The position numbers and the translations under genes are program-made. Below are positions 5,913 to 34,381 of a stretch of 34,581 nt of DNA, one piece after another. The DNA is taken from NCBI GenBank assembly GCA_016873715.1, contig VGWF01000045.1:1-34581 (forward strand), given 5' to 3'. Within the stretch, counting starts at the first letter, position 1, and every line of letters begins with the position of its first letter. The notes beneath the pieces were generated by a model. That model was given only the letters and a program-made list of their open reading frames with translations, ran no database searches and was not told the origin of the DNA. Source of the DNA: Lentisphaerota bacterium (GTDB lineage Bacteria > Verrucomicrobiota > Kiritimatiellia > PWTM01).

Positions 5913-8900
5913 GTGCATGGGAACTGGCTTCCGGTCGCGCTGCTGCTGGCGGCGGCATCCGCTGGCGCAATCCGCCGTGGTCATCAGCGAGATCATGTAC
6001 GACCCGGTCGGTGGAGGAACGAACGAGTTCGTCGAGTTGCACAACGCCGGGACCGGCACCGTGTCGGTCGCCGGATGGTACTTCGCCGACGGCATCACCT
6101 ACACGTTCCCGGCGGGCACGACGATCGGCGCGGGGGACTACCTCGTGGTCGCGATCAACCGGGCGGCCTTCCAGATGCGGTATCCCGGGGTGACGAACCT
6201 CGCGCCCGGCTTCTTCAACGGGCAGCTCAACAACGGCGGCGAGCGGCTGTCCGTGGCCGATCCGTCGAGCAACCGGGTCTTCGACGTGACCTACGACAAC
6301 AACGCTCCGTGGCCCGAGGCGGCGGCGGGGCTCGGGAGTTCGCTCGTCCTCGTCGATCCGGCCGGGCCCGCGAACGACCCGGCGAACTGGCGGGCCAGCG
6401 CCAATCTTCACGGCTCGCCCGGGGAGCCCGGCGGTTTCTTCGTGCGCGACGTCGTCATCAACGAGGTGCTCGCCCACACCGATCCCCCGCAGGAGGACGC
6501 GGTCGAGCTGGCCAACCTGACGACGAACGCGATCGGCATCGGCGGCTGGTATCTGAGCGACGACAACGCCGTCCGGAAGAAGTACCGCTTCCCCGACGGG
6601 ACCGTGATCCCCGCCGGCGGGTATCTCGTCGTCTACCAGGCCCAGATGACGAACGGCGCCGTGCCCTTCTCCATCAGTTCCAAGGGCGACGACGTCTACC
6701 TGTCGGAGGCCGACGGCCAGAGCAACATCGTCCGCTACGTCGACCAGGTGGAATTCGAGCCGACGAAGAACGGCGTGGCGGTGGGCCGGCATCCCGACGG
6801 AACCGGCGAAAGCCTCATCGCCTTGTCGACCGCGACGCTGGGTGTCGACTCGCCGGGGTCGCTCGAGGAGTTCCGCACGGGGACGGGCGCCCGCAACGCG
6901 GGCCCCTACGTCGGCCCGCTGGTGATCAGCGAGATCATGTACCGCCCGGTGGCCTCGAACATGGCGGGGCGGATGGAGGCCGAGTTCGTCGAGATCGCGA
7001 ACCGGACCCCCACCAACGTGCCCCTGTTCAATCCCGACTACCCCGAACTGCCCTGGAGCCTGACGGGGGGCATCAGCTACCGGTTCCCGTCCAACACGGT
7101 CCTGGCGGCCGGCCAGCGGCTCGTCGTGATCTCCACCAACGCGTTCGAGGCCTTCCGCGCAAGCTGGGGGCTCGCGACGAACGCGGCGATCCTCGGCCCG
7201 TTCACCAACCAGCTCGGCAACGCGGGCGACACGGTCCGCATGCGGGCGCCGAACAACCCCGAGCCGGGCACCAACGCCGCGGCCTACCACGTCGAGGACG
7301 AGGTCCACTACGACGACGACCTCCCGTGGCCGCTCGCCGCGGACGGCCTGGGCGGATCGCTCGAGCGGACGGACCTCGACGCATGGGGCGACACGGCGGG
7401 CAACTGGCACAGCACGCCGGGGACGGCCACGCCCTGCGCGACGAACTCGGTCTTCGTACCCCCGGGCGCCGTCGTCATCAGCGAGATCATGGCCGTCAAC
7501 CGGCACACGGTCCGCGACGAGGACGGGGACTTCTCCGACTACATCGAGCTGTACAACACCACCGAGTTCCCGGTGTCGCTCGCCGGCTGGCACCTGACCG
7601 ACCAGCAGGCCAATCCCGCACTGTGGACCTTCCCCGCCGTGACGATCCCGGCCCGCGGCACCCTGGTGGTCTTCGCCTCCCAGAAGGACCGCACGAACGA
7701 CGTCAACTTCCTGCACACGAATTTCGCGCTCGACGCGGCGGGCGAGTACCTCGCGCTGTTCCGCAGCGACCTCGTCCTCGAGTACGCGTTCGACCCGGCC
7801 TATCCGCCGCAAACGGCGGATGTCGCGTACGGTCACCCCGACATCGGCGGCCGCAACGCCACGGCGGTCCGGGCCGGCAGCGCGGGCCGGTGTCTCGTCC
7901 CGACCAACGCGGCGATGCTCGCAGTGGACTGGCCGTCGCGCACGTTCGACGACTCCGCGTGGCTCCCCGCCGGCAACGGCGTCGGGTTCGACACGGACAC
8001 GACCTACCTGTCGCTGATCGAGACCGACCTCAAGGCCGCGATGCTGAACCGGCAGGCGTCGGCCTTCGTCCGCTATCCCTTCGTGATCACCCACAGCGCC
8101 GACGCGAGCCGCATGCTGCTGCGGCTCAAGTACGACGACGGCATCGACGTCTTCCTCAACGGCGTCCGGGTCGCCTCCAACAACGTCCCCGCGGGGGCGA
8201 CATGGAACTCGTCCGCCCCCTCCAGCCGGAGCGACTCGTCTGCCATCGTCTTCGAGGATCGCGACCTCTCCTCCTTCGTGCACCTCCTCGTCGACGGCAC
8301 GAACGTGCTCGCGATCCAGGGGCTGAACAACGGAGCCAGCAGTGGCGACTTCCTCGCGCTGCCGGAGCTGCAGCTCTCCTGGTCGGGCGCGACGGGGATC
8401 GTGGTCGCCGCGCCCGGCTACCTGGCGGCAGGCACGCCCGGCAGCGCGAACGGTCCGGTCCTTCCGGGCTTCGTCGGCACGCCGGTCTTCTCGCATCCCG
8501 GAGGCCTGTTCTCCGGATCCCTTTCGGTGACGGTCTCCTGCGCGTCCGCCGGCGCGGTGATCCGCTACACGCTCGACGGGACGGAACCGACGACCAACTC
8601 CCCGGTCTACATCGAGCCGCTGGCGGTGACGAACGACGTGGAGATCGTCGCGCGGGCCTACGCCGTCGGTCTCGTCCCCAGCCCGACGGCCGGCGTGGCC
8701 TTCCGCTCGTCGTTCCTCGGCATCAACGAGATCCTGGCGAGCAATGCGACCGCGACCCCGGAGCTGAAGGACCACACGGACTTCGGCGACTGGATCGAGA
8801 TCTACAACGGCGGGGCCGAGGCCGTCGATCTCGGGGGCTACCACCTCAGCGACAGTTCGCAGCAGCCCTTCCGCTGGCAGATCCCGACCGGGACCGTGAT

Positions 8901-11900
8901 CGCGGCCGGCGGCTTCCTCTTCGTCTGGGCGGACGGGGGCGACCTCGAGCCCGGCCTGACGCTCACCTATCCCTTCTGGCCGTACTACACTCACGTTACG
9001 CTGGATTACCACGCGAACTTCAAGCTCGGCGCCGAGGGCGAGGAAGTCGGCCTGTTCAGCCCGGCCGGCAGCCGGATCGACTCGGTGGTCTTCGGGCTCC
9101 AGATGACCGACATCTCCTACGGCCGCCATCCCGACGGCGCCGCCACGTGGGGCTACTTCGGCGAGCCGACCGCGCGCACCAACAACCGGCCGCCGGTCCT
9201 GTCGCACAACCTCCACCGCGCGCCGGCCGTCGCGATCTCGCCGGACGGACCGCTCTTCACGAACGGGACGGTGACGGTGACCCTCGCCTCCGGGCCTGAG
9301 GTGACGGAGATCCGCTACACGACGAACGGCGCCGCGCCCTCCTCCGCCTCGATCCTCTTCACGAATCCCGTCATGCTGACGACCAGCGGTGTGATCCGCG
9401 CGCGCGCCTACGCCGCCGGCCTGCATCCCGGCCCCGTGGCAACACGCACGTTCCTCGTCAACGAGCGGCAGCCCGACCTTCCGATCCTGTCGATGGTCGT
9501 CGACCCGTTCCTGTTCTTCGATCCGCAGCGCGGCATCTACACCAACGTGATCAAGGAGCGGGAGGTGCCCGGACACCTCGAGTTCCACACGACGCCGACG
9601 AACGCGGGGTTCCGCATCGACGCCGGCTTCCGCATCTACGGTCTCAACACCTTCCTCTACGCGCAGAAGCCGTTCACGGTCTACCTGGACGGCAAGTACG
9701 GGCAGGACGTCCTCGCCTACCAGCTCTTCCCGGACAAGGCGATCGGCGAGTTCGACCGGTTCATCCTCCGCAACGGAAATGACGACTGGTCGACGACGTT
9801 CTTCCGCGACACCCTCGGGCAGTCGATGCTCCGGGGCGTCCTCGATAATGCGATCCAGTCCTACCGGCCCTGCGCGATGTACCTCAACGGCCGCTACTAC
9901 GGCCTGATGAACATCCAGGAGAAGATGGACGAGATGTACTGCGTGAAGAACCGCGGCGTCGCCCTGGAGGATGTCGACTTCTTCGAGATGGACGGCACCG
10001 CGACGACGGACGACTGGATCCTCAATGCCGGCACGGCTGACGGCTGGAACGCGCTGATGGCCTTCGTCGGCACGAACAACCTGGCCGACCCGGCGGCCTA
10101 CGCCCACGTGAAGAGCCAGGTCGACATCGAGGATCTCGTCGACTACGTCGCCGGCCAGGTCTTCGTCTACGACTCAAGCTGGTTCCACAACCGCAAATGG
10201 TGGCGGGACCGCAACCCGGGCGGCAAGTGGCGGTTCTGTTTCGTCGACCTGGACCGCGCCCTCCGGACCAACAGCCTGAACAGCAACGTCATCAGCACCA
10301 TGACCAGCGGCTCGCGCGACATGTTCATCTTCCGCGAGTGCATCAGCAACGCGGAGTTCCGCGCCTACGCCGTCCAGCGCATCATGGCCCACCTGGGCAG
10401 TTCCTTCAGCACGAACCGCACCCTGCCCCTCATCAACGCCGAGGCCCAACGCCTCCGCAACGAGATGGTCGAGCACATCAAGGCGTACGGCACACGCGGC
10501 GGCATCCCGAGCCTGGCCACGTGGGACGCCCAGGTCGAGGCGGTCCGGATCTACGTCCGCCAACGGCCCGCCATCGCCCTCCAGCAGGTGGCCAGCTACT
10601 TCGGAACCGGCCAAACCGCCCGCATCCGGGTGGACACCGGCGGCGGCGCGGGGCGGATCACGGCGAACCACGTGGCACTGGACCCCTCGGTCACGAACAC
10701 GTTTGTCGCCGGCCTGCCGGTCCGGATCAAGGCGATCCCGGAGATCGGCCAGACCTTCGTGCAATGGGAGTTCATTGCCACGACGAACGTCCCTCTCGTG
10801 GTCGCGGGCGCCGAATGGCGGTACCTGGTCCCGACGAACGAGGTTCCCGGCTGGAACGACCCGGGGTTTGACGATGCCGCATGGGCGTCGGGGCCCGCCC
10901 AACTCGGCTACGGCGACGGGGACGAGTCCACCACGATCGGCCATTCGTCGAACCTGACCACGGCGGCCTACTTCCGGCGTCCGCTCGTCGTCACCAACGC
11001 CGCGGCCCTTGGCCCCCTCAATCTGCGGCTTCTCGCGGACGACGGCGCGATCGTCTACGTCAACGGAGGGGAGATCCTCCGCCAGAACATGCCGACGGGG
11101 ACCATCGCGCACACGACGCTGTCCGTCACCAACGTCCCCAGCCCTGCCGAGAACTACTTCATCGACTACTTCCTCTCCCCGACCAACCTTGTGGAGGGTT
11201 CGAACTCCATCGCCGTGGAGGTCCACCAGACGGCGGCCAACTACACCGATCTCGGCTTTGACCTCTCCATCGTCGCGTACGTCTCCGGCACCCAGACCGT
11301 CGCCGGGGCCGAGACCGAGGTCGTGCCCTCCGCCGCCCTCGACATCCGTGCCGTGTTCGCGCCGACGGGCGCGAGCGTGCTTCCCGGGGGGACGATCGGG
11401 TCAGATACGACGCTGACCGCGGCCGGCTCGCCTTGGCTGGCGACGGGCGACATCTTCGTACCCTCGAACACGACGCTGACCGTCGAGCCGGGGACGACGA
11501 TCCGCATGCCCGACGGGGCCAGCGTCCGCGTCCAGGGCCGGCTCCTGATGCTCGGAACGACCGGCCAGCCGGTCCGCGTCGAGGCCAACCCCGACGCGGC
11601 GGCCCGGCGCACGCTGAACTCGGATCCGCTCCTCGCCGTCGGAGACGAGCTGTCGCCCTGCTGGGGCGGGATCACCTTCGAGCACGCCACGCATGCCGGC
11701 ATCCTGTCCAACGTTGTTCTCCGCGGGGCCTCCCTCGCGGCGCACGACCCGGTCAACCTGAAGGCCGCGGTGTCGGCGCTCGGGTCGGACCTCTTCATGC
11801 ACGGGATCGACCTCGACGAGGTGCGGTTCCCGATCTTCGTGCAGGAGGGCGCCCCGACGGTCCTCGAGAACAGCCGGATCCGCCTCGCGATCACCGGTGA

Positions 11901-13281
11901 CGGCATCAACATCAAGCGCGCCGCGTATGCCCGCGTCGAGGGGTGCGAGTTCTCCGGCGCCTTTGCGGTCGACGCCGACGCCATCGACTACGACGGCGTT
12001 CACGGCGGCATCATCCGCGGCAACCACCTCCACGATTTCCTGGGCGACAACGACGACGCGATCGACATCGGCGAACTGGCCACGGACCTTCTGGTGGAGA
12101 GCAACTTCATCGCCCGCTGCTCCGACAAGGGCGTCTCCATCGGCCAGGGATCCACGGCCCTCGTGCGCCACAACGTGATCCGCAACGTCGCCTTGGGAGC
12201 GGGCATCAAGGACGCCGGCTCGTTCGGCCTCTTCGAGAACAACACGTTCCACAACACCGGCAACGCGATCGCGGTCTACGAGAAGAATCCCGGGGCCGGC
12301 GGCGGCGGGGTCGAGGTGCGGAACTGCATCTTCTCGGGAACCGCGATGGAACCCGTAACGATCGATGCGCTGTCGACGGGACTCGTCTCGTGGTGCCTGT
12401 CGGACACGCTGGCCGTCGCGGGAGCGGGAAACCGCCTCGGCGAGCCGCTGTTCGAGCGTGCGGGCGCCGACAACTTCCGGCTGCAGACCGGCTCCCCCGC
12501 GATCGACTCCGGATCGCCGGTCTCGCCGGCCGATGCGGACGGCAGCCGCACCGACATGGGCGCCGTTGCCTTCGACTGGCGCGAGGGCCATGCGGTCATC
12601 AACGAAATCCACTACCACCCCGCCGACACGAACCAGGCGGAGTACCTGGAACTGCACAACCCGGGCAGCGCGGCGCTCGATCTGGCCGGCTGGCGCTTCG
12701 GTCAGGGCCTGACCTTCGAGTTCCCCGCCGGCACCGTGCTTCCGGCGGGCGGCTACCTCCTGCTGTGCGCGGGAACGAACGGGGCGCCCGTGGTCCCGAA
12801 CCGGTTCGCGTGGACGGCGGGGGTTCTGGACAACGCGGGCGAGACCCTGGAACTTCTGGATGCGGCTTCCAACGTCATGGACAAGGTCACCTATCTCAAC
12901 TATGCCCCCTGGCCGGCCGGGCCCGACGGGCTGGGGCCCTCACTCTCGCTGATCGATCCTCGATGGGACAACTCCCGGCCGGAGAGTTGGTATGCGAGCG
13001 GTGCGGACGGAGGCACGCCCGGCGGAGCGTTCGACCACCAGTTCCCCGGACCCGTCGGCGCCGGCCCGCTCCCCGGCAGTGCGCCGGGCGGTGTCCGCTT
13101 CGACTTCGACGGCGTGCCGGGGCTGCTCTATGTGCTCGAGGGAACGGACGACCTCCTCCACCCGGACTGGCAGCCCACGGGAGTGTCCGGCTTGCCGTCG
13201 GGTGGTCGCGTCGTTCTCGACCTGACGCCCCCGCCCGGGTCGTCGAACCGGTTCTATCGGATCCGCGTGCGGTCTCCGTAG
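5913..13281 (+). CDS. Giant secreted lamin-tail/CotH/beta-helix protein (frameshifted near its signal peptide)
   Basis: About 2,455 residues, exported, function unknown. Visible domains in order: four lamin-tail domains opening with VVISEIMYDP-like motifs (about residues 20-640), a beta-sandwich ligand-binding-like region (660-830), a chitobiase/hexosaminidase C-terminal-like domain (860-930), a fifth lamin-tail domain (933-1090), a second chitobiase-C-like domain (1105-1185), a CotH-like kinase domain (1187-1570; LRNGNDDW, FRDTLGQSML and the metal-binding FVDLDRAL), another beta-sandwich (1630-1790), a right-handed beta-helix (1840-2180), a sixth lamin-tail domain (2225-2360) and a short C-terminal module ending SNRFYRIRV. 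The apparent start ATG 5917 gives no signal peptide. Another frame starting at GTG 5913, with GGAG upstream, encodes WLPVALLLAAASA, a good signal peptide. One surplus base at about 5961-5970 separates the frames, so the true protein probably reads ...AAASA-AQSAVVISE. CotH proteins phosphorylate secreted proteins; activity here is unproven. Confidence 0.9.
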
Positions 13282-13338
13282 CGGTTGCCGTCCGCATCCG
13301 CCCCCATCCGGGGCCATCCCCAATTACGGGACCCAAGT

Positions 13339-13366
13339 TTGACAATCCAGGTCAATTGCGTAGACT
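13339..13366 (+). promoter_or_regulatory. Candidate promoter for the transhydrogenase operon
   Basis: A consensus -35 TTGACA (13339-13344), a 16-base spacer and TAGACT (13361-13366) lie 34 bases before the pntAA ATG. The -35 and spacer also carry TTGAC-N7-GTCAA, a 5-bp inverted repeat. The same spacer length and identical -10 hexamer occur at 26354-26381. Confidence 0.55.
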
Positions 13367-13400
13367 CCCACGGCTTCGGCAACGGAAGGGGTAGGTTTCC

Positions 13401-14543
13401 ATGAAGATCTTCGCAGCCCGGGAACTTCATCCGGGCGAACAGCGGGCCGCACTGAACCCCGCCTCGACGGACAAGCTTGTGAAGCTTGGCCTCGAAGTCT
13501 CGATTGAATCGGGAATCGGACAGACCCTCCACCACCCCGACGCGGACTACACCGCCAAGGGCGCCACCGTGGCCCCGGACCGGGCCGCGGGCCTGTCCGG
13601 CGCGGACCTGATCCTGCGCCTCCGCCCGCCCACGGTCGAGGAGGCCGCCGCCTCCCGTCCGGGCTCCATGCACATCGGCTACCTCGAGCCCTTCTCCAAC
13701 AAGACCGTGATCGAGGCCTTCGCGAAGTCCGGGGCCACGGCGATGTCCGTCGAACTGGTTCCCCGCTCGACGATCGCGCAGAAGATGGATGCGATCAGCT
13801 CGCAGGCGAACCTCGGCGGATATGTCGCGGTGGTGCTCGCGGCGGAGCGGCTGACCAAGGTCCTCCCGATGATGATGACGCCCGCCGGCACCATCACGCC
13901 GGCCCGGGTGTTCATCATCGGCGCGGGCGTGGCGGGTCTCCAGGCGATCGCCACGGCCAAGCGTCTCGGCGCCCGCGTCGAGGCCTTCGACACGCGGCCG
14001 GTCGTCAAGGAGCAGGTCCAGTCGCTCGGCGCGAAGTTCGTCGAGGTCGACCTCGGCGAGACCGGGCAGACCAAGGACGGCTACGCCAAGCAGCTGACCG
14101 AGGAGCAGCTCGCCAAGCAGCGCGCCGCGATGGCGAAGCACTGCGCCGAGGCGGACGTCGTCATCACGACCGCCCAGGTGTTCGGCAAGCGCGCGCCGCG
14201 GATCATCACCGCCGACATGGTCCGGGGGATGAAGGCCGGCAGCATCGTCGTCGACATGGCCGTCGAGACGGGCGGCAACGTCGAAGGCTCGGCGCTGGAC
14301 CAGGAGGTCAACGTCAACGGCGTGCGGATCCTGGGCCTCGCAAACCTCCCCGGCCGCGTGCCGGTCGCCGCGAGCCAGATGTACGCGAGCAACCTGGCGA
14401 ACTTCGTCGAGCACTTCTGGGACAAGAAGGCGAAGACGTTCGGGTTCAACCTCGAGGACGAGATCCTCAAGGGACTCGTGGTCACCCACGGCGGCAAGGT
14501 CGTCCATTCGGCCGTCCGCCAAGCGCTCGGTTTGAACGACTAG
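13401..14543 (+). CDS. pntAA: NAD(P) transhydrogenase subunit alpha part 1 (NAD-binding domain I)
   Basis: This is the soluble NAD(H)-binding component of the proton-translocating transhydrogenase, which uses the proton gradient to reduce NADP+ with NADH. The 380-residue protein begins KIFAARELHPGEQRAALNP, has the Rossmann motif IIGAGVAGLQAIATAKRLGA (about residues 172-191) and the RQD-loop-like region RSTIAQKMDAISSQANLGGY. It lacks membrane helices: the alpha subunit is split here, as in Rhodospirillum, and the helices are encoded by the next gene. ATG 13401 is preceded by a purine-rich GGAAGGGG. It is first in a three-gene operon with pntAB and pntB. Confidence 0.97.
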   Translation: MKIFAARELHPGEQRAALNPASTDKLVKLGLEVSIESGIGQTLHHPDADYTAKGATVAPDRAAGLSGADLILRLRPPTVEEAAASRPGSMHIGYLEPFSNKTVIEAFAKSGATAMSVELVPRSTIAQKMDAISSQANLGGYVAVVLAAERLTKVLPMMMTPAGTITPARVFIIGAGVAGLQAIATAKRLGARVEAFDTRPVVKEQVQSLGAKFVEVDLGETGQTKDGYAKQLTEEQLAKQRAAMAKHCAEADVVITTAQVFGKRAPRIITADMVRGMKAGSIVVDMAVETGGNVEGSALDQEVNVNGVRILGLANLPGRVPVAASQMYASNLANFVEHFWDKKAKTFGFNLEDEILKGLVVTHGGKVVHSAVRQALGLND

Positions 14544-14563
14544 GTCAAGGAAGGAGCCTCGAC

Positions 14564-14854
14564 ATGCTGGGTCTGCTGTTCTTCGTATTCGTCCTTGCGG
14601 TCTTCCTCGGATTCGAGTTGATCGCCAAGGTTCCCTCGCAACTCCACACCCCGCTGATGTCGGGATCGAACGCGATCTCCGGCATCACGATCGTCGGCGC
14701 GCTGGTCGCGGCCGGGCAGCCCCACGGCGGCGACTTCGTGACGGTCCTCGGCACGATCGCCGTGGCGGCCGCGATGATCAACGTGGTGGGCGGCTACCTG
14801 GTCACCGACCGGATGCTCGCGATGTTCAAGCACAAGGACGGAGGCGCGAAGTAG
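14564..14854 (+). CDS. pntAB: NAD(P) transhydrogenase subunit alpha part 2 (membrane)
   Basis: A 96-residue membrane protein with three hydrophobic segments: about residues 1-20 (LLFFVFVLAVFLGFELI), 40-58 (ISGITIVGALVAAG) and 64-85 (VLGTIAVAAAMINVVGGYLV). It contributes helices to the proton channel of the transhydrogenase. The motif KVPSQLHTPLMSGSNAISGI is highly characteristic of this subunit. The start has a strong AAGGAAGGAG site. It lies 20 bases after pntAA and two bases before pntB, so the three are clearly one operon. Confidence 0.97.
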   Translation: MLGLLFFVFVLAVFLGFELIAKVPSQLHTPLMSGSNAISGITIVGALVAAGQPHGGDFVTVLGTIAVAAAMINVVGGYLVTDRMLAMFKHKDGGAK

Positions 14855-27688: not shown

Positions 27689-28945
27689 TTACCGGTCCGT
27701 CAGCGCGACGACGCCCGGCAGGGCCTTGCCCTCAAGGAACTCGAGGCTCGCGCCGCCGCCGGTGCTGATGTGCGTCATCTTCGCCGCGAGTCCGCTCTTG
27801 TTCACCGCCGCGACGCTGTCGCCGCCGCCGATGATGCTGAGGCACTTCGTCGCGGCGATCGCCTTCGCCATCGCCATGGTGCCGCCGGCGAACGGGGCCA
27901 TCTCGAAGCAGCCCATCGGGCCGTTCCAGACCACCGTCTTCGCCCGGGCGATCTCGTCGCAGAAGAGCGCGGTGCTCCTCGGCCCGATGTCGAGGGCCAT
28001 CCAGCCGTCCTTGATCCCCGCTTCGCCGACCGTTTCGGTCGCGGCCGCGGCGTCGAACTTGTCGGCGATGACGTGGTCGACCGGCAGCAGCAGCTTCACT
28101 CCCTTCGCCGCCGCCTTCGCGAGGATCTCCTTCGCGAGGTCGGCCTTGTCCTCCTCGACCAGGCTCTTGCCGGTCGGAAGGCCCTTGGCGCGGTAGAACG
28201 TGTAGGCCATCGCGCCGCCGATGATCAGCGAGTTCACCTTCTCGAGCAGGTTCGTGATGACGTTGACCTTGTCGCTGACCTTGGCGCCGCCGAGAATGGC
28301 GACGAACGGCCTCTCGGGGCTGGCCAGCGCCCGGCCGAGGTAGTCGATCTCCTTCTCCATCAGGAAGCCCGCCACGTTCCGCTTGTAGAACTTGCAGACC
28401 AGCGCCGTGGACGAGTGGGCGCGGTGCGCGGAGCCGAACGCGTCGTTGATGAAGATCTCGCCGTCGCCGAGCGGGGCGAGCTTCTCGGCCAGTTCGGCCT
28501 GCTTCTTCTTCATCTCGGCCTTGGCGGCCTTCTTCTCCTCGTCCGTCGCCGTGTCGGGCAGCTTGGCCTTGCCCTCGTCGGCGTAGAACCGGGTGTTCTC
28601 GACGACCATGACCTCGCCGGGCTTGAGCGCCCGGGCCATCGCGACCGTCTCCGCGCCGATGCAGTCCGACCCGAACTTGACCGGCATGCCCAGAAGCTCG
28701 GCGAGCTTGTCGGCCGCGGGCTTCAGGCTGAAGGCGGCCTCGAACCCCTTGCCCTTCGGCCGGCCGAGGTGGCTCATCAGGACCAGCGCCCCGCCCTTCT
28801 CGAGAACGTACCGGATGGTCGGCAGCGCGGCGCGGATGCGCGTGTCGTCGGCGACCTTGCCGTCCTTGATCGGCACGTTGAAGTCCACGCGGCTCAACAC
28901 CCGCCGCCCCGCCACGTCCACATCGCGAACCGTGAGCTTGTTCAT
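27689..28945 (-). CDS. pgk: Phosphoglycerate kinase
   Basis: Pgk converts 1,3-bisphosphoglycerate and ADP to 3-phosphoglycerate and ATP. The 418-residue protein shows RVDFNVPIKDGKVADDTRI, LMSHLGRPKG, VVENTRFY (normally LLENvRF), FINDAFGSAHRAHSS, ILGGAKVSDKV, VVWNGPMGCFE and the ATP-site GGGDSVAAV. The N-domain has an unusual charged, lysine-rich insertion after the ENTRFY motif (about residues 125-160), making the protein some 20 residues longer than typical. ATG 28945 has an AGGAG site. It lies on the same strand as gapA, but the HzsA-like gene separates them in the opposite orientation. Confidence 0.97.
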   Translation of the reverse strand: MNKLTVRDVDVAGRRVLSRVDFNVPIKDGKVADDTRIRAALPTIRYVLEKGGALVLMSHLGRPKGKGFEAAFSLKPAADKLAELLGMPVKFGSDCIGAETVAMARALKPGEVMVVENTRFYADEGKAKLPDTATDEEKKAAKAEMKKKQAELAEKLAPLGDGEIFINDAFGSAHRAHSSTALVCKFYKRNVAGFLMEKEIDYLGRALASPERPFVAILGGAKVSDKVNVITNLLEKVNSLIIGGAMAYTFYRAKGLPTGKSLVEEDKADLAKEILAKAAAKGVKLLLPVDHVIADKFDAAAATETVGEAGIKDGWMALDIGPRSTALFCDEIARAKTVVWNGPMGCFEMAPFAGGTMAMAKAIAATKCLSIIGGGDSVAAVNKSGLAAKMTHISTGGGASLEFLEGKALPGVVALTDR

Positions 28946-29170
28946 CCTGTCATCTCCTGGTCATGTTGCCGGGACACCCGGCGCGATTCCCTGCCCGATC
29001 GCCGGCCTGAAATTCCGCGACAGGTATCATGAGCGTCCCCCTCTGTCCAGCCGACCGCGGCCTCGAGGCCATGGGCGGGGCGGCGGTGTTCCCGGCGGCG
29101 GCGACGAGGCGCGCCATGGGCCGGCAGAATGGTCTTGCGCCCGGGCGTTGGCATGGACAGGGTACGTGGC
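28946..29170. other. Divergent intergenic gap, no gene seen
   Basis: 225 bases between the divergent pgk and HzsA-related genes. Apart from the pgk ribosome-binding site and a small hairpin in its leader (GCCGGG-ACA-CCCGGC, 28968-28982), I see no convincing promoter pair. Open frames through it are continuations of shadow frames. Confidence 0.5.
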
Positions 29171-32100
29171 ATGGGAAAGGCGAAACCGGGGTTCGGATCC
29201 CTGATCACGCGAACGAGAGCGGGCGTCGCTGCTTCCCTGTTCGCGCTGGGCGCGGCATGGGGCGCGGCCGCGGAACCGGAAGCGGCGGACCGGACCGCGC
29301 TCGTCGCCCCCATCCTGTTCTGCAAGCGCTTCAATTACCAGGGCCTGCACATCTACGACACGTTCTACCAGTGGCGCCCCGGCGGCGGCCTCTACGTGCT
29401 GGAGAATCCCGCCGACCCGCCGGAGCGGCACCGCGTGCGTCCGGTCATCGACCCCTCGACGGCCGAAACGCCGGGAGAAGGCGTCTATTTCGACCCCGCG
29501 TTGTCCTACGATGCGAAGAAGCTCCTTTTCTGTTTCAAGGGTTCGGAAACGGGGGCGTCGGCGATCTTCGAAATCGGCACGGACGGACGGGGGTTGCGGC
29601 GCATCACCCGTCCCGACGCCGTCGGCAATCCCTACCGGGGCCGGGGCGGCGGACACCACGACGTGAAACCGTGCTACCTGCCCGACGGCCGCATCGCGTT
29701 CACCTCCACGCGCTACAGCGGCCTGGTTCCGTGCGCGAACAACGGCGTGGCGATCCTGCACGCCATGAACGCCGACGGCGGCGGCATCCAGGCCCTCTCC
29801 GTGAACAACGTGACCGAGTTCGATCCCTGCGTGCTGCCGGACGGCCGGATCCTGTTCGGGCGCTGGGAATACGTCGACCGCAACGCGCTGGTGATCCAGA
29901 GCCTCTGGACGATGCTGCCGGACGGCCGCCACGAGATGGAGTATTTCGCCAACAACATGGTCTTTCCCGAGGCCGTCCTGCAGGCCAAGCCGGTGCCGGG
30001 CCACGACGGACTGGTGGTGGCCACCTTCGCGCCGCACAACGCGCCGCCCCGCGGCACGATCGCGATGATCGACGCGCGCATCGGCCGGAACGACCCCGCG
30101 GCCATCTTCAACTTCGAATCGCCGGACCGTCCCACGCACGACCGGGGCGAATCGTGCGACCCGTGGGCGCTGGGCCGGAATGTCGTTCTCTTCAGCGGCG
30201 TGCCCCCCGACACGAACGCGCCGGCCATCCCGGTGGAGACCCCCGGCTTCCGGCGGCGCAGCAATCCCCGGCTCAACGCCCTCCTGCTCATCGACCGCGC
30301 GGGCCGCCGCGAGGTCGTGCACAGCGACCCGGCCATCGACCTGCACAACCCGATCCCGCTGGCGCCGCGACCGCGGCCGGTCACCGGCCCGGACCTGGCC
30401 GACCGCACGCAGCGGACGGGCCGGTTCTTCGTGAACGACGTCCACGTCTCCATGCCGGAGGTTCCGCGCGGGACGGTCAAGTGGCTCCGCGTCCTGGAGG
30501 AGACCTCGCGTGTGAGCGAAAGCCCCGGCGGCACGTGGATGAACCAGACGTTCTCCATCTCGGCGGCGCTGGCGTGGAGCGCCAAGATCTTCCACGGGAT
30601 CGTGCCGGTGGAGCCGGACGGATCGGTCTACTTCGAGGCGCCCTCCGGCCGGGCGCTCTACTTCCAGCTGCTCGACGGGGATTACCGCCTGGTGCGCGGC
30701 ATGCGGACCTTCGTCCAGGCGGCGCCCGGCACGACGCGCAGCTGCACGGGCTGCCACGAGTACGGGCCCACGTCGTCCGCCGCCCCCCGGCCCGATGGCC
30801 GCGAACTGCGCCGGCTGCGGGACGAATCGTGGGGCGGCGGGTATCTCGACTACACGGAGCGGGTCCAGCCAATCCTGGACGCGCGGTGCGTAAGCTGCCA
30901 CGGCGGGGAGAAGGGCCTGGCGGCGGGACTCGACCTTTCGCGCGGCTGGACGGAGTTCTTCAACATCTCCTACGAGCACCTCACCGCGCGCCGCGAGCGG
31001 ATGTACACGGCCGACCTGATCGGCGGCATCTGCGCCATGAACGGGACGGCGCACTGGTCCTGCAAGGTCTTCGGCCCCTATTCCCACGGAAGCGGCAGGG
31101 CCATCCTCGCGGACGTCCTGCTCAGGGAACCGCACCGGAACCTGCTGTCCCGCGAGGAGCGCGAACAGGTCTTCGCGTGGATGGACTCCAACGGTCTCTA
31201 CTTCGGAACGTGGGACTACACGCAGGCCGGTCCTCGCTCCAGGCCGTTTCTGGACGCGGTGGATCGCGTGAAGGCGGTCATGAAGGATGCGGGGTGCGTG
31301 CGCTGCCACGCGGACGCCAAGGGCGAGATCCTGCGCTTCGACTCGTGGATCAATCTCGACCGCCCGGAGATGAGCCGCGTGCTGCGCGCGCCGCTGCCGG
31401 CGTCGGCCTCTGCGGAGGGCGGCTACGGGCTGGCGCTCTGCCGCGGGAGGCCGGTGGATCCGTCGTTCAGCCGCAAGGGGCTGATCTACGGCTTCGGCTA
31501 CGCCCACGGCGTGAAGGAACTCGACTCGTTCCCGACGCAAACCTGGCCCACGACCTGGCCCCCCGAGGGCGCGCCGGTGACGTCCTTCGCGTCCACCGTC
31601 GACCCGCACTACCGCCGGATGCTGGAGGTCATCCGGGACGCCCGCTCGGCCCAGCTCGCCGCGCCGCGCGTGGACATGCCGGGCGCCGAATGGGTCGGGG
31701 GCGGCATCCGCGAGGGACGGTCCCGCCAGATGCTGCCGCAGCCGCTGCCGGACCCGTTGCCCGGGGTCCGGGCGTCGGTGGACGGGAACGGGTTCGTGCG
31801 GCTGGACTGGGAGCGCTCGGCGCGGATGATCGGGCTGATCGCCGAGGTGCACCGCGGCGAAACCGCCGGCTTCGAGCCCGGCGAGGCGACCCGCATCGGA
31901 CGGACCGAACGCTTCGGCTTCAGCGACACCAACGCGCCGCCGGGCACGGCCCACTACGCCGTGGTGTTCGTCTCCGACCCGGCCGAGACCTGCGGCACCT
32001 GCAAGAGCGGCGCGGTGGTCACGTTCGCGGGAGACCAGGCCGGGGCGACGGCCGCCGCCCCGGACCCCACGGGGTGTCCGCTCTCGACCTTCGAACCCCG

Positions 32101-33158
32101 CCGCGGCGATCCGGTGCGGGTGGCCGTCGAGGTGCCGGGGGCCCTCCCCGCCATCCGGGCCGGCACGCCGCGGACCGAACCGCTCGCGGGCCGGGTGCGG
32201 CTGCGCTGGGCGGAGGCCGGCATGCCCGGGCTGACGACCTACGACGTGTACGGCCAGGCGGCGGACGGCCCCCCGGAACCGCCCCGGCGGCTCAACCGCG
32301 AACCGCTGAGAGGAACGACGTTCGTCGATGCGATATTCCACGCGGGACGCGAGGTGCGCTACGCGGTCGTCGCTCACGCGCCGCGCCGACCCGCGGCGGG
32401 AGTGCCCCCGCCCGGCGAAGGCTGGGCGACAGCGCGCGCCATGCCGCCGCGCACGGATCCCCTGTTCACGCTGGAGTCGGCGGCCGGCGAACTGCAGCTG
32501 TCGGGGGACGCGCGACTCGAGAACGGCACGCTCGACCTCTCGCGGGGCGGGTTCGCGACGCTGGCGGCGTCGGACGGCCGCGTGATGGACGGGCCGTTCA
32601 GTTTCGCGATGGACGCGCGTTTCGACGAGGCCGGCCAGATGCCCGTGCTGCTGGGCTTCGGGGCGTACAACGGTGCGGGCTGGTTCCTTCAGAAGATCGG
32701 CGGACGCTGGCGCTTCCACCTCTCGGGCGTCTCCTGCGACGGCGGCACCGTGCCGCTGGGGGCCTGGGTGCGCGTGCTGGGCGTTTACGACGGACGCTCC
32801 GCGCGGCTGTACCAGGACGGGAAGCTCGTGGCCGAAGCGGAGGTGCCCGCCCCGCCGACGCCCCACGGCCCGGTGTTCTCGGTCGGGCAGTACAAAATCG
32901 GGCGTCTCCTGCGACGGCGGCACCGTGCCGCTGGGGACCTGGGTGCACCTGCTGGGCGTTTACGACGGACGCTCCGCGCGGCTGTACCAGGACGGGAAGC
33001 TCGTGGCCGAAGCGGAGGTGCCCGCCCCGCCGACGCCCCACGGCCCGGTGTTCTCGGTCGGGCAGTACACCGCGGCCGGAGAGGCCCCCTACCAGTTCAA
33101 GGGCGCCATCCGGAACCTGGCGCTCTACGATCGCGCCCTGGACGCGGATGGCAGGTAG
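29171..33158 (+). CDS. HzsA-related multiheme beta-propeller protein with FN3-like and LamG-like tail (duplication near its end)
   Basis: A secreted protein of 1,270 residues once a 175-bp duplication is collapsed. After a signal peptide (GVAASLFALGAAWGAAA), the N-terminal half has propeller-like repeats (DVKPCYLPDGRIAFTSTR near 160, EFDPCVLPDGRILFGRWEY near 214), then three c-type heme sites: CTGCH (525-529), CVSCH (573-577) and CVRCH (709-713). Propeller plus hemes, and the contexts SCTGCHE and ILDARCVSCH, match the group related to hydrazine synthase alpha (HzsA). Unlike HzsA, it continues with two FN3-like domains (about 860-1080) and a LamG-like domain (about 1100-1270). True HzsA works with HzsB and HzsC in anammox bacteria; neither is here, so hydrazine synthesis is not implied. 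The start is uncertain: ATG 29153 or 29129 would add 6 or 14 residues. No strong ribosome-binding site is seen. Confidence 0.72.
32723..33069. repeat. Direct duplication, period 175 bp, in the LamG-like domain
   Basis: A 172-base segment at 32723-32894 recurs at 32898-33069, with a three-base spacer (AAA). Three bases differ, changing GAWVRVLGVYD to GTWVHLLGVYD. The period is 1 modulo 3, so the reading frame of the first copy runs out, and the natural end of the protein (YQFKGAIRNLALYDRALDAD) is read only from the frame of the second copy. Confidence 0.95.
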
Positions 33159-33200
33159 AAGGCACCCGCGGCCCGCGACGAGCCGCCGGGCGCATACGAA

Positions 33201-33236
33201 GAAACGCGGCGGGATCCGGGGACCCCGCCGCGTTTC
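33201..33236. terminator. Bidirectional terminator between the HzsA-like gene and gapA
   Basis: Perfect 13-bp arms GAAACGCGGCGGG (33201-33213) and CCCGCCGCGTTTC (33224-33236) with a 10-base loop. The AT ends of the stem and short T-rich flanks suit termination in both directions. It lies 42 bases after one stop and 19 bases after the other. Confidence 0.75.
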
Positions 33237-33255
33237 GTTCAGACCGGGAAGCGGC

Positions 33256-34381
<1,126 letters not shown>

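Follow-up and report, generated by a model that had tools for sequence, protein, structure and literature searches.

To our knowledge, the alpha subunit of anammox hydrazine synthase (HzsA) is the sole member of the HZS_alpha superfamily with an established function, and we know of no function for the relatives of hydrazine synthase that occur outside anammox bacteria. Such relatives are already published. In the available text of Hagglund et al. (PMC12758564), homologs of the alpha subunit outside anammox were assigned to clades I–IV and lacked the HzsA active-site residues, which, according to the accessible parts of the same paper and of PMC12607021, include Tyr591 (ligand of heme alphaI) and Cys303 (Zn site). 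Alternative substrates for non-anammox HZS_alpha relatives have also been suggested (PMC10732223, available text). A further group of many-copy c-type cytochromes in PVC bacteria, the Planctomycete-specific cytochromes PSCyt1-3, was proposed to act on carbohydrates (PMC5615132). Here, a relative of HzsA with a third heme motif and an added C-terminal tail was analysed in a window of 34,581 nucleotides, a term that refers throughout to the whole stretch of DNA under study.

Organisation of the gene and its reading frame

The following features were located in the window (coordinates, strand and description):

27689..28945, minus strand: pgk, phosphoglycerate kinase (gene annotation of the window)
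29129..33307, plus strand: open reading frame of the HZS_alpha-family protein, 1392 aa as the window reads, with the last ~135 aa out of frame past the tandem repeat
29171..29275, plus strand: second possible start (aa 15), followed by an N terminus resembling a signal peptide, to near AAA-EPEA (from the sequence; hydrophobic stretch and A-x-A motif assigned by eye)
29300..30470, plus strand: beta-propeller part, PD40/TolB-like (domain search, profile, AlphaFold model and structure match)
30470..30760, plus strand: HZS_alpha middle domain (PF18582) with heme site I at its end (profile match)
30743..30757, plus strand: heme site I, CTGCH, aa 539-543, counterpart of heme alphaI
30887..30901, plus strand: heme site II, CVSCH, aa 587-591, counterpart of heme alphaII
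31295..31309, plus strand: heme site III, CVRCH, aa 723-727, in a C-terminal extension absent from HzsA
31736..32400, plus strand: two FN3-like domains, the first with a CGTC (CxxC) insert
32460..32896, plus strand: LamG-like domain, including the first copy of the repeated segment (E 9.7e-9)
32723..32894, plus strand: tandem repeat copy 1, 172 nt (sequence comparison)
32898..33069, plus strand: tandem repeat copy 2, 172 nt, with 3 differences, shifting the frame (sequence comparison)
33070..33158, plus strand: final part of the LamG domain, read in the other frame up to its stop (list of open reading frames, domain match)
33198..33240, plus strand: G+C-rich hairpin separating the convergent gene pair and resembling a terminator on either strand (-30 kcal/mol, z -3.1)
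33256..34317, minus strand: gapA, glyceraldehyde-3-phosphate dehydrogenase (gene annotation of the window)

The plus-strand frame from 29129 displayed a normal, coding-type codon periodicity, and its product is predicted from the sequence to be exported. The middle domain was matched by PF18582 at aa 448-544 (E 7.8e-19) with 68.5 bits, above the curated cut-off of 26.6 bits. An earlier note on this DNA had described three CxxCH motifs in place of two and a tail composed of FN3-like and LamG-like domains; all three motifs were recovered at the positions given above, and the tail was resolved into two FN3 folds and the LamG-like match. Its treatment of 29171-33158 as one gene had to be revised, as this range comprises two frames split by a 175-nt tandem repeat: the stop at 33158 belongs to a frame (32673-33158) different from that of the start at 29129. 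The two 172-nt copies are spaced by 175 nt inside the LamG domain. Because 175 is not divisible by 3, the frame from 29129 departs from this domain near aa 1257 and continues as far as 33307, giving a 52-nt overlap with gapA.

The repeat may be a real mutation or the result of an assembler joining two strain variants. Separate from any functional reading of the protein is the possibility that the window copy is decaying or truncated, with the repeat as a true mutation that deleted the end of the LamG domain. The frameshift and the ensuing overlap with gapA would fit this explanation, as does the finding that close relatives carry the repeated segment in single copy within an uninterrupted LamG domain; however, the remaining 1250 codons are open and of normal periodicity, the heme core is intact, and the 3 base differences sit in a small cluster, a pattern equally compatible with joined strain variants. 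Decay of the window copy is thus possible but on the unlikely side.

Relationship to hydrazine synthase alpha

A profile of the core matched PDB entry 5c2v chain A over the whole length (E 3.7e-45). Residues 58-870 were modelled with AlphaFold (pLDDT 83.5, pTM 0.88) and the model was compared with known structures by Foldseek; the best PDB match was again 5c2v_A (E 1.9e-24, TM 0.56/0.59, 814 columns), while TolB structures occupied ranks 3-21 and were matched by the propeller part only. Hydrazine synthase alpha is therefore the closest PDB structure to the first ~800 residues, in line with the earlier proposal that the N-terminal half is HzsA-like. In sequence alignments, heme sites I and II coincided with the two CxxCH sites of HzsA that bind hemes alphaI and alphaII. 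A histidine was aligned by phmmer with HzsA His772, the distal heme alphaII ligand, but the profile alignment placed it one position away; in the clade alignment, it was missing from two relatives, L072 and L076.

The fold match and the two aligned heme sites would be expected of a hydrazine synthase alpha subunit, or of some other enzyme that carries out N-N or nitric-oxide chemistry, but several features argue strongly against this assignment. The NCBIfam equivalog for hydrazine synthase alpha, NF052339, gave 47.3 bits against a cut-off of 800; the tyrosine corresponding to Tyr591, expected four residues past the CxxCH histidine, was missing, and so was the Cys303 counterpart at the aligned YGNC position. 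No gene resembling hzsB, hzsC or a fused hzsBC was found within the window, as had been noted before, and a genome search with CCP_MauG as a proxy query for HzsB/C returned one full match, on another contig (C120) that has no PF18582 gene. HZS homologs outside anammox are, moreover, judged unable to make hydrazine in the available text of PMC12758564. A function in nitrogen chemistry is accordingly considered highly improbable. Because the HzsA-specific features fail and the published homologs are likewise devoid of them, the window protein is a member of the HZS_alpha superfamily that is very unlikely to produce hydrazine.

Distribution of the family and the three-heme clade

The pgk product shared 88% identity with its nearest Kiritimatiellae counterpart, 65-77% with others in the class and 50-61% with those of nearly all other phyla (the exception outside Kiritimatiellae being a Victivallales MAG at 65%); the genome probably belongs to the class Kiritimatiellae. 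It contains 27 PF18582 loci, including the window gene. Across 57 relatives, PF18582 was present in 13 and missing from 44, with 23 loci in one other genome. When five other Kiritimatiellae genomes, reached by way of individual loci, were searched with the HZS_alpha core (E<=1e-30), the match counts were 13, 13, 26, 28 and 85, with split matches possibly inflating these figures. The genome with 85 matches (L135, G062), some of them maybe split, is a 6.3-Mb Kiritimatiellia MAG and lies well above all others examined.

A 100-row tree united the window protein with L071 to L081 in a 12-row clade (SH-aLRT 100) that consisted entirely of three-heme proteins, with all three CxxCH sites kept in 12/12 members. 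Five phyla were represented in this clade: Kiritimatiellota, Planctomycetota, Verrucomicrobiota, Lentisphaerota and Hydrogenedentota. Judging from this tree, the three-heme form is a cross-phylum clade, not a private fusion. The remaining paralogs were spread over other clades, most of them also of mixed phylum, which indicates that the copies did not arise from local duplication alone. A lineage-specific tandem expansion was likewise considered and ruled out, the 27 paralogs sitting in many clades common to other phyla. Sampled genomes of the same family yielded no close orthologue of the window protein (best identity 38%); close orthologues were present in the genome of L071 and two more Kiritimatiellae.

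The C-terminal tail proved to be modular across relatives. The CGTC (CxxC) insert of the first FN3 domain, SDPAETCGTCKSG, was seen in the window protein, L071 and L072 only. By eye, the N-terminal module of a GH32 protein encoded near an HZS_alpha gene (L078:1119-3263) is very like the N terminus of the paralog L028:631-3612.

Insertion between gapA and pgk

The window gene is convergent with gapA and divergent from pgk. Its opposite orientation to both had been pointed out in the earlier note, together with the suggestion that it was inserted between two genes that are often adjacent, a suggestion that was supported when the spacing was compared across genomes. By coordinates, gapA directly precedes pgk on the same strand, 23-209 nt apart, in 27/37 relatives, and the two genes are adjacent in all three Kiritimatiellae checked (84-128 nt apart), including the nearest by pgk. 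The corresponding gap in the window measures 4.3 kb and contains the HZS_alpha gene in opposite orientation. Although gapA and pgk are also apart in four further genera of this family, the window gene is not what separates them there, and the interrupted order was not conserved in relatives. The comparison supports an insertion of the window gene into an ancestral gapA-pgk pair. Insertion breakpoints were not recovered, as the gapA-pgk spacer of the nearest relative fails to align with the window flanks. The hairpin at 33198..33240 was missed by a pattern scan, and Rfam gave zero matches in the window.

Fused modules and gene neighbourhoods

Among 25 paralogs of the window's genome (window gene included), 6 carried F5/8C, 5 FGE-sulfatase (SUMF1/EgtB-type) and 3 LamG domains, with single cases of GH28, NPCBM and Bac_rhamnosid_N. 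The fused modules of 43 relatives from other genomes included LamG (11), F5/8C (7), NPCBM (3), 3-keto-disaccharide hydrolase (2) and CBM_4_9 (1). Genes for GH2, GH95, GH78, GH32, GH127, GH99, sulfatases and GFO/IDH oxidoreductases were found among the neighbours of HZS_alpha genes.

Relatives on Bacteroidota plasmids (L171-L173) are annotated with the same SUMF1/EgtB/PvdO domain as the FGE-sulfatase-type paralogs, and a context of sulfatases and GH2 occurs among them. On the Parabacteroides distasonis plasmid record L171, the gene for an HZS_alpha-like/SUMF1 protein (10678-14664) is directly followed by ccsA, and dihydroxyacetone kinase genes (DhaK), lsrF and GH130 lie downstream; this cluster is possibly an operon for a sugar pathway that includes a dedicated gene for heme attachment.

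The window's genome (5.1 Mb) gave 130 sulfatase (PF00884) and 29 3-keto-disaccharide hydrolase matches, a content that suggests a specialist for sulfated glycans. In a whole-genome position test, sulfatases lay within 3 kb of HZS_alpha genes in 4/27 cases against 3.5 expected, i.e. without enrichment. An apparent excess of sulfatases among neighbours (7/69, with none listed among 69 random-region controls) was undone by this test and was discarded as support. For 3-keto-disaccharide hydrolases the excess was marginal, with 4/27 cases within 5 kb against 1.3 expected (p 0.04 in one test among several). None of the neighbours compared was a partner gene conserved across phyla, and no sugar-degradation gene stands directly beside the window gene, whose neighbours are gapA and pgk. 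Elsewhere in the window (5917-13281, plus strand), a protein of 2454 aa is encoded that combines six lamin-tail domains with CotH kinase, chitobiase C-terminal and beta-helix domains.

Proposed role of the window protein

With a heme predicted to be attached at each CxxCH motif, the window protein would be a c-type cytochrome. This prediction is made because the three heme motifs are kept, a cytochrome c assembly protein (PF01578) is encoded in the genome and ccsA adjoins the Parabacteroides relative. A redox role, as proposed in the earlier note, is reasonable. Because of the fused sugar-related modules and some of the gene neighbourhoods, we propose a sugar-linked periplasmic or surface redox protein that serves carbohydrate catabolism rather than nitrogen metabolism; this is the likeliest of the readings considered, with belief and doubt evenly balanced. 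Briefly, the propeller and the HZS middle domain would form a pocket over heme I, where either a substrate derived from sugar or a soluble carrier of that substrate's electrons would be oxidised; the electrons would travel on via heme II and the additional heme III towards an acceptor in the periplasm or at the surface, while the FN3-LamG tail would anchor the protein to a glycan or a partner protein. In this scheme, we infer the substrate class, the direction of electron flow and the role of the tail. Counting against a sugar role, sulfatases are no nearer to HZS_alpha genes than chance, no neighbour family is conserved across phyla and the window gene lies beside gapA and pgk only; in addition, LamG, FN3 and F5/8C domains also bind proteins, and FGE-sulfatase-type domains have several functions.

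Methionine 525, near heme site I and conserved in 31/35 alignment rows, could as an axial ligand make heme I an electron-transfer rather than a catalytic site. Together with the clade-specific His at aa 653, it provides candidate distal ligands for an arrangement without substrate chemistry, in which all three hemes would be low-spin and six-coordinate and the propeller would act as a docking surface, e.g. for an outer-membrane acceptor. Weak matches to MtrC/MtrF-type domains point the same way, whereas the HZS_alpha architecture kept in full and the paralogs with fused enzyme domains (e.g. GH28 or FGE-sulfatase type) speak for catalysis, so that pure electron transfer appears rather unlikely.

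Should these proteins act on sugars, this would bear on the origin of hydrazine synthase, as the anammox enzyme may then descend from a carbohydrate-linked cytochrome family. A broader idea casts HZS_alpha-fold cytochromes, with their tens of copies per genome and varied sugar-related modules, as a big and so far overlooked group of exported heme oxidoreductases that act on sugars in Kiritimatiellae and further PVC bacteria, and from which the anammox enzyme was recruited; at present it is doubtful. The superfamily is in any case a major part of the exported proteome of these bacteria, with 27 genes beside ~130 sulfatase matches in the window's genome and up to 85 matches in other Kiritimatiellae, and the three-heme clade with its compact core offers a concrete protein for expression.

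Comparison with described systems

Neither a three-heme clade with an FN3-LamG tail nor an expansion on the scale seen in Kiritimatiellae was found in the open-access literature searched. Two published sets, clades I-IV (PMC12758564) and the hzs-like genes from MAGs of the Oslofjord tunnel (PMC10732223), are likewise of the PF18582 type, come from Planctomycetota and others, and lack the active-site residues of HzsA. According to the available text of both papers, these homologs were chosen for an adjacent fused beta-gamma gene, whereas the window gene has no such neighbour, and the same text mentions neither a clade with three hemes nor an FN3-LamG tail, nor genomes with tens of copies.

PSCyt1-3 resemble the present family in their many copies, their suspected sugar role and, in some members, fused LamG, NPCBM or F5/8C modules (PMC5615132). 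They differ in their Pfam domains: the window protein carries HZS_alpha, and its match to PSCyt1 (14.2 bits) remained below the cut-off of 22. TolB and PD40 propellers are related to the propeller part of the window protein, which matched TolB structures, but TolB possesses neither heme nor the HZS middle domain, and the window gene has no Tol-Pal context.

HzsA of Kuenenia stuttgartiensis (5c2v) shares the fold over the whole length, with propeller, middle domain and C-terminal cytochrome part, at 16% identity in the structural alignment. In contrast to HzsA, whose beta and gamma partner genes are not found beside the window gene, the window protein is devoid of the Tyr591 and Zn-site residues and adds a third heme and the FN3-LamG tail.
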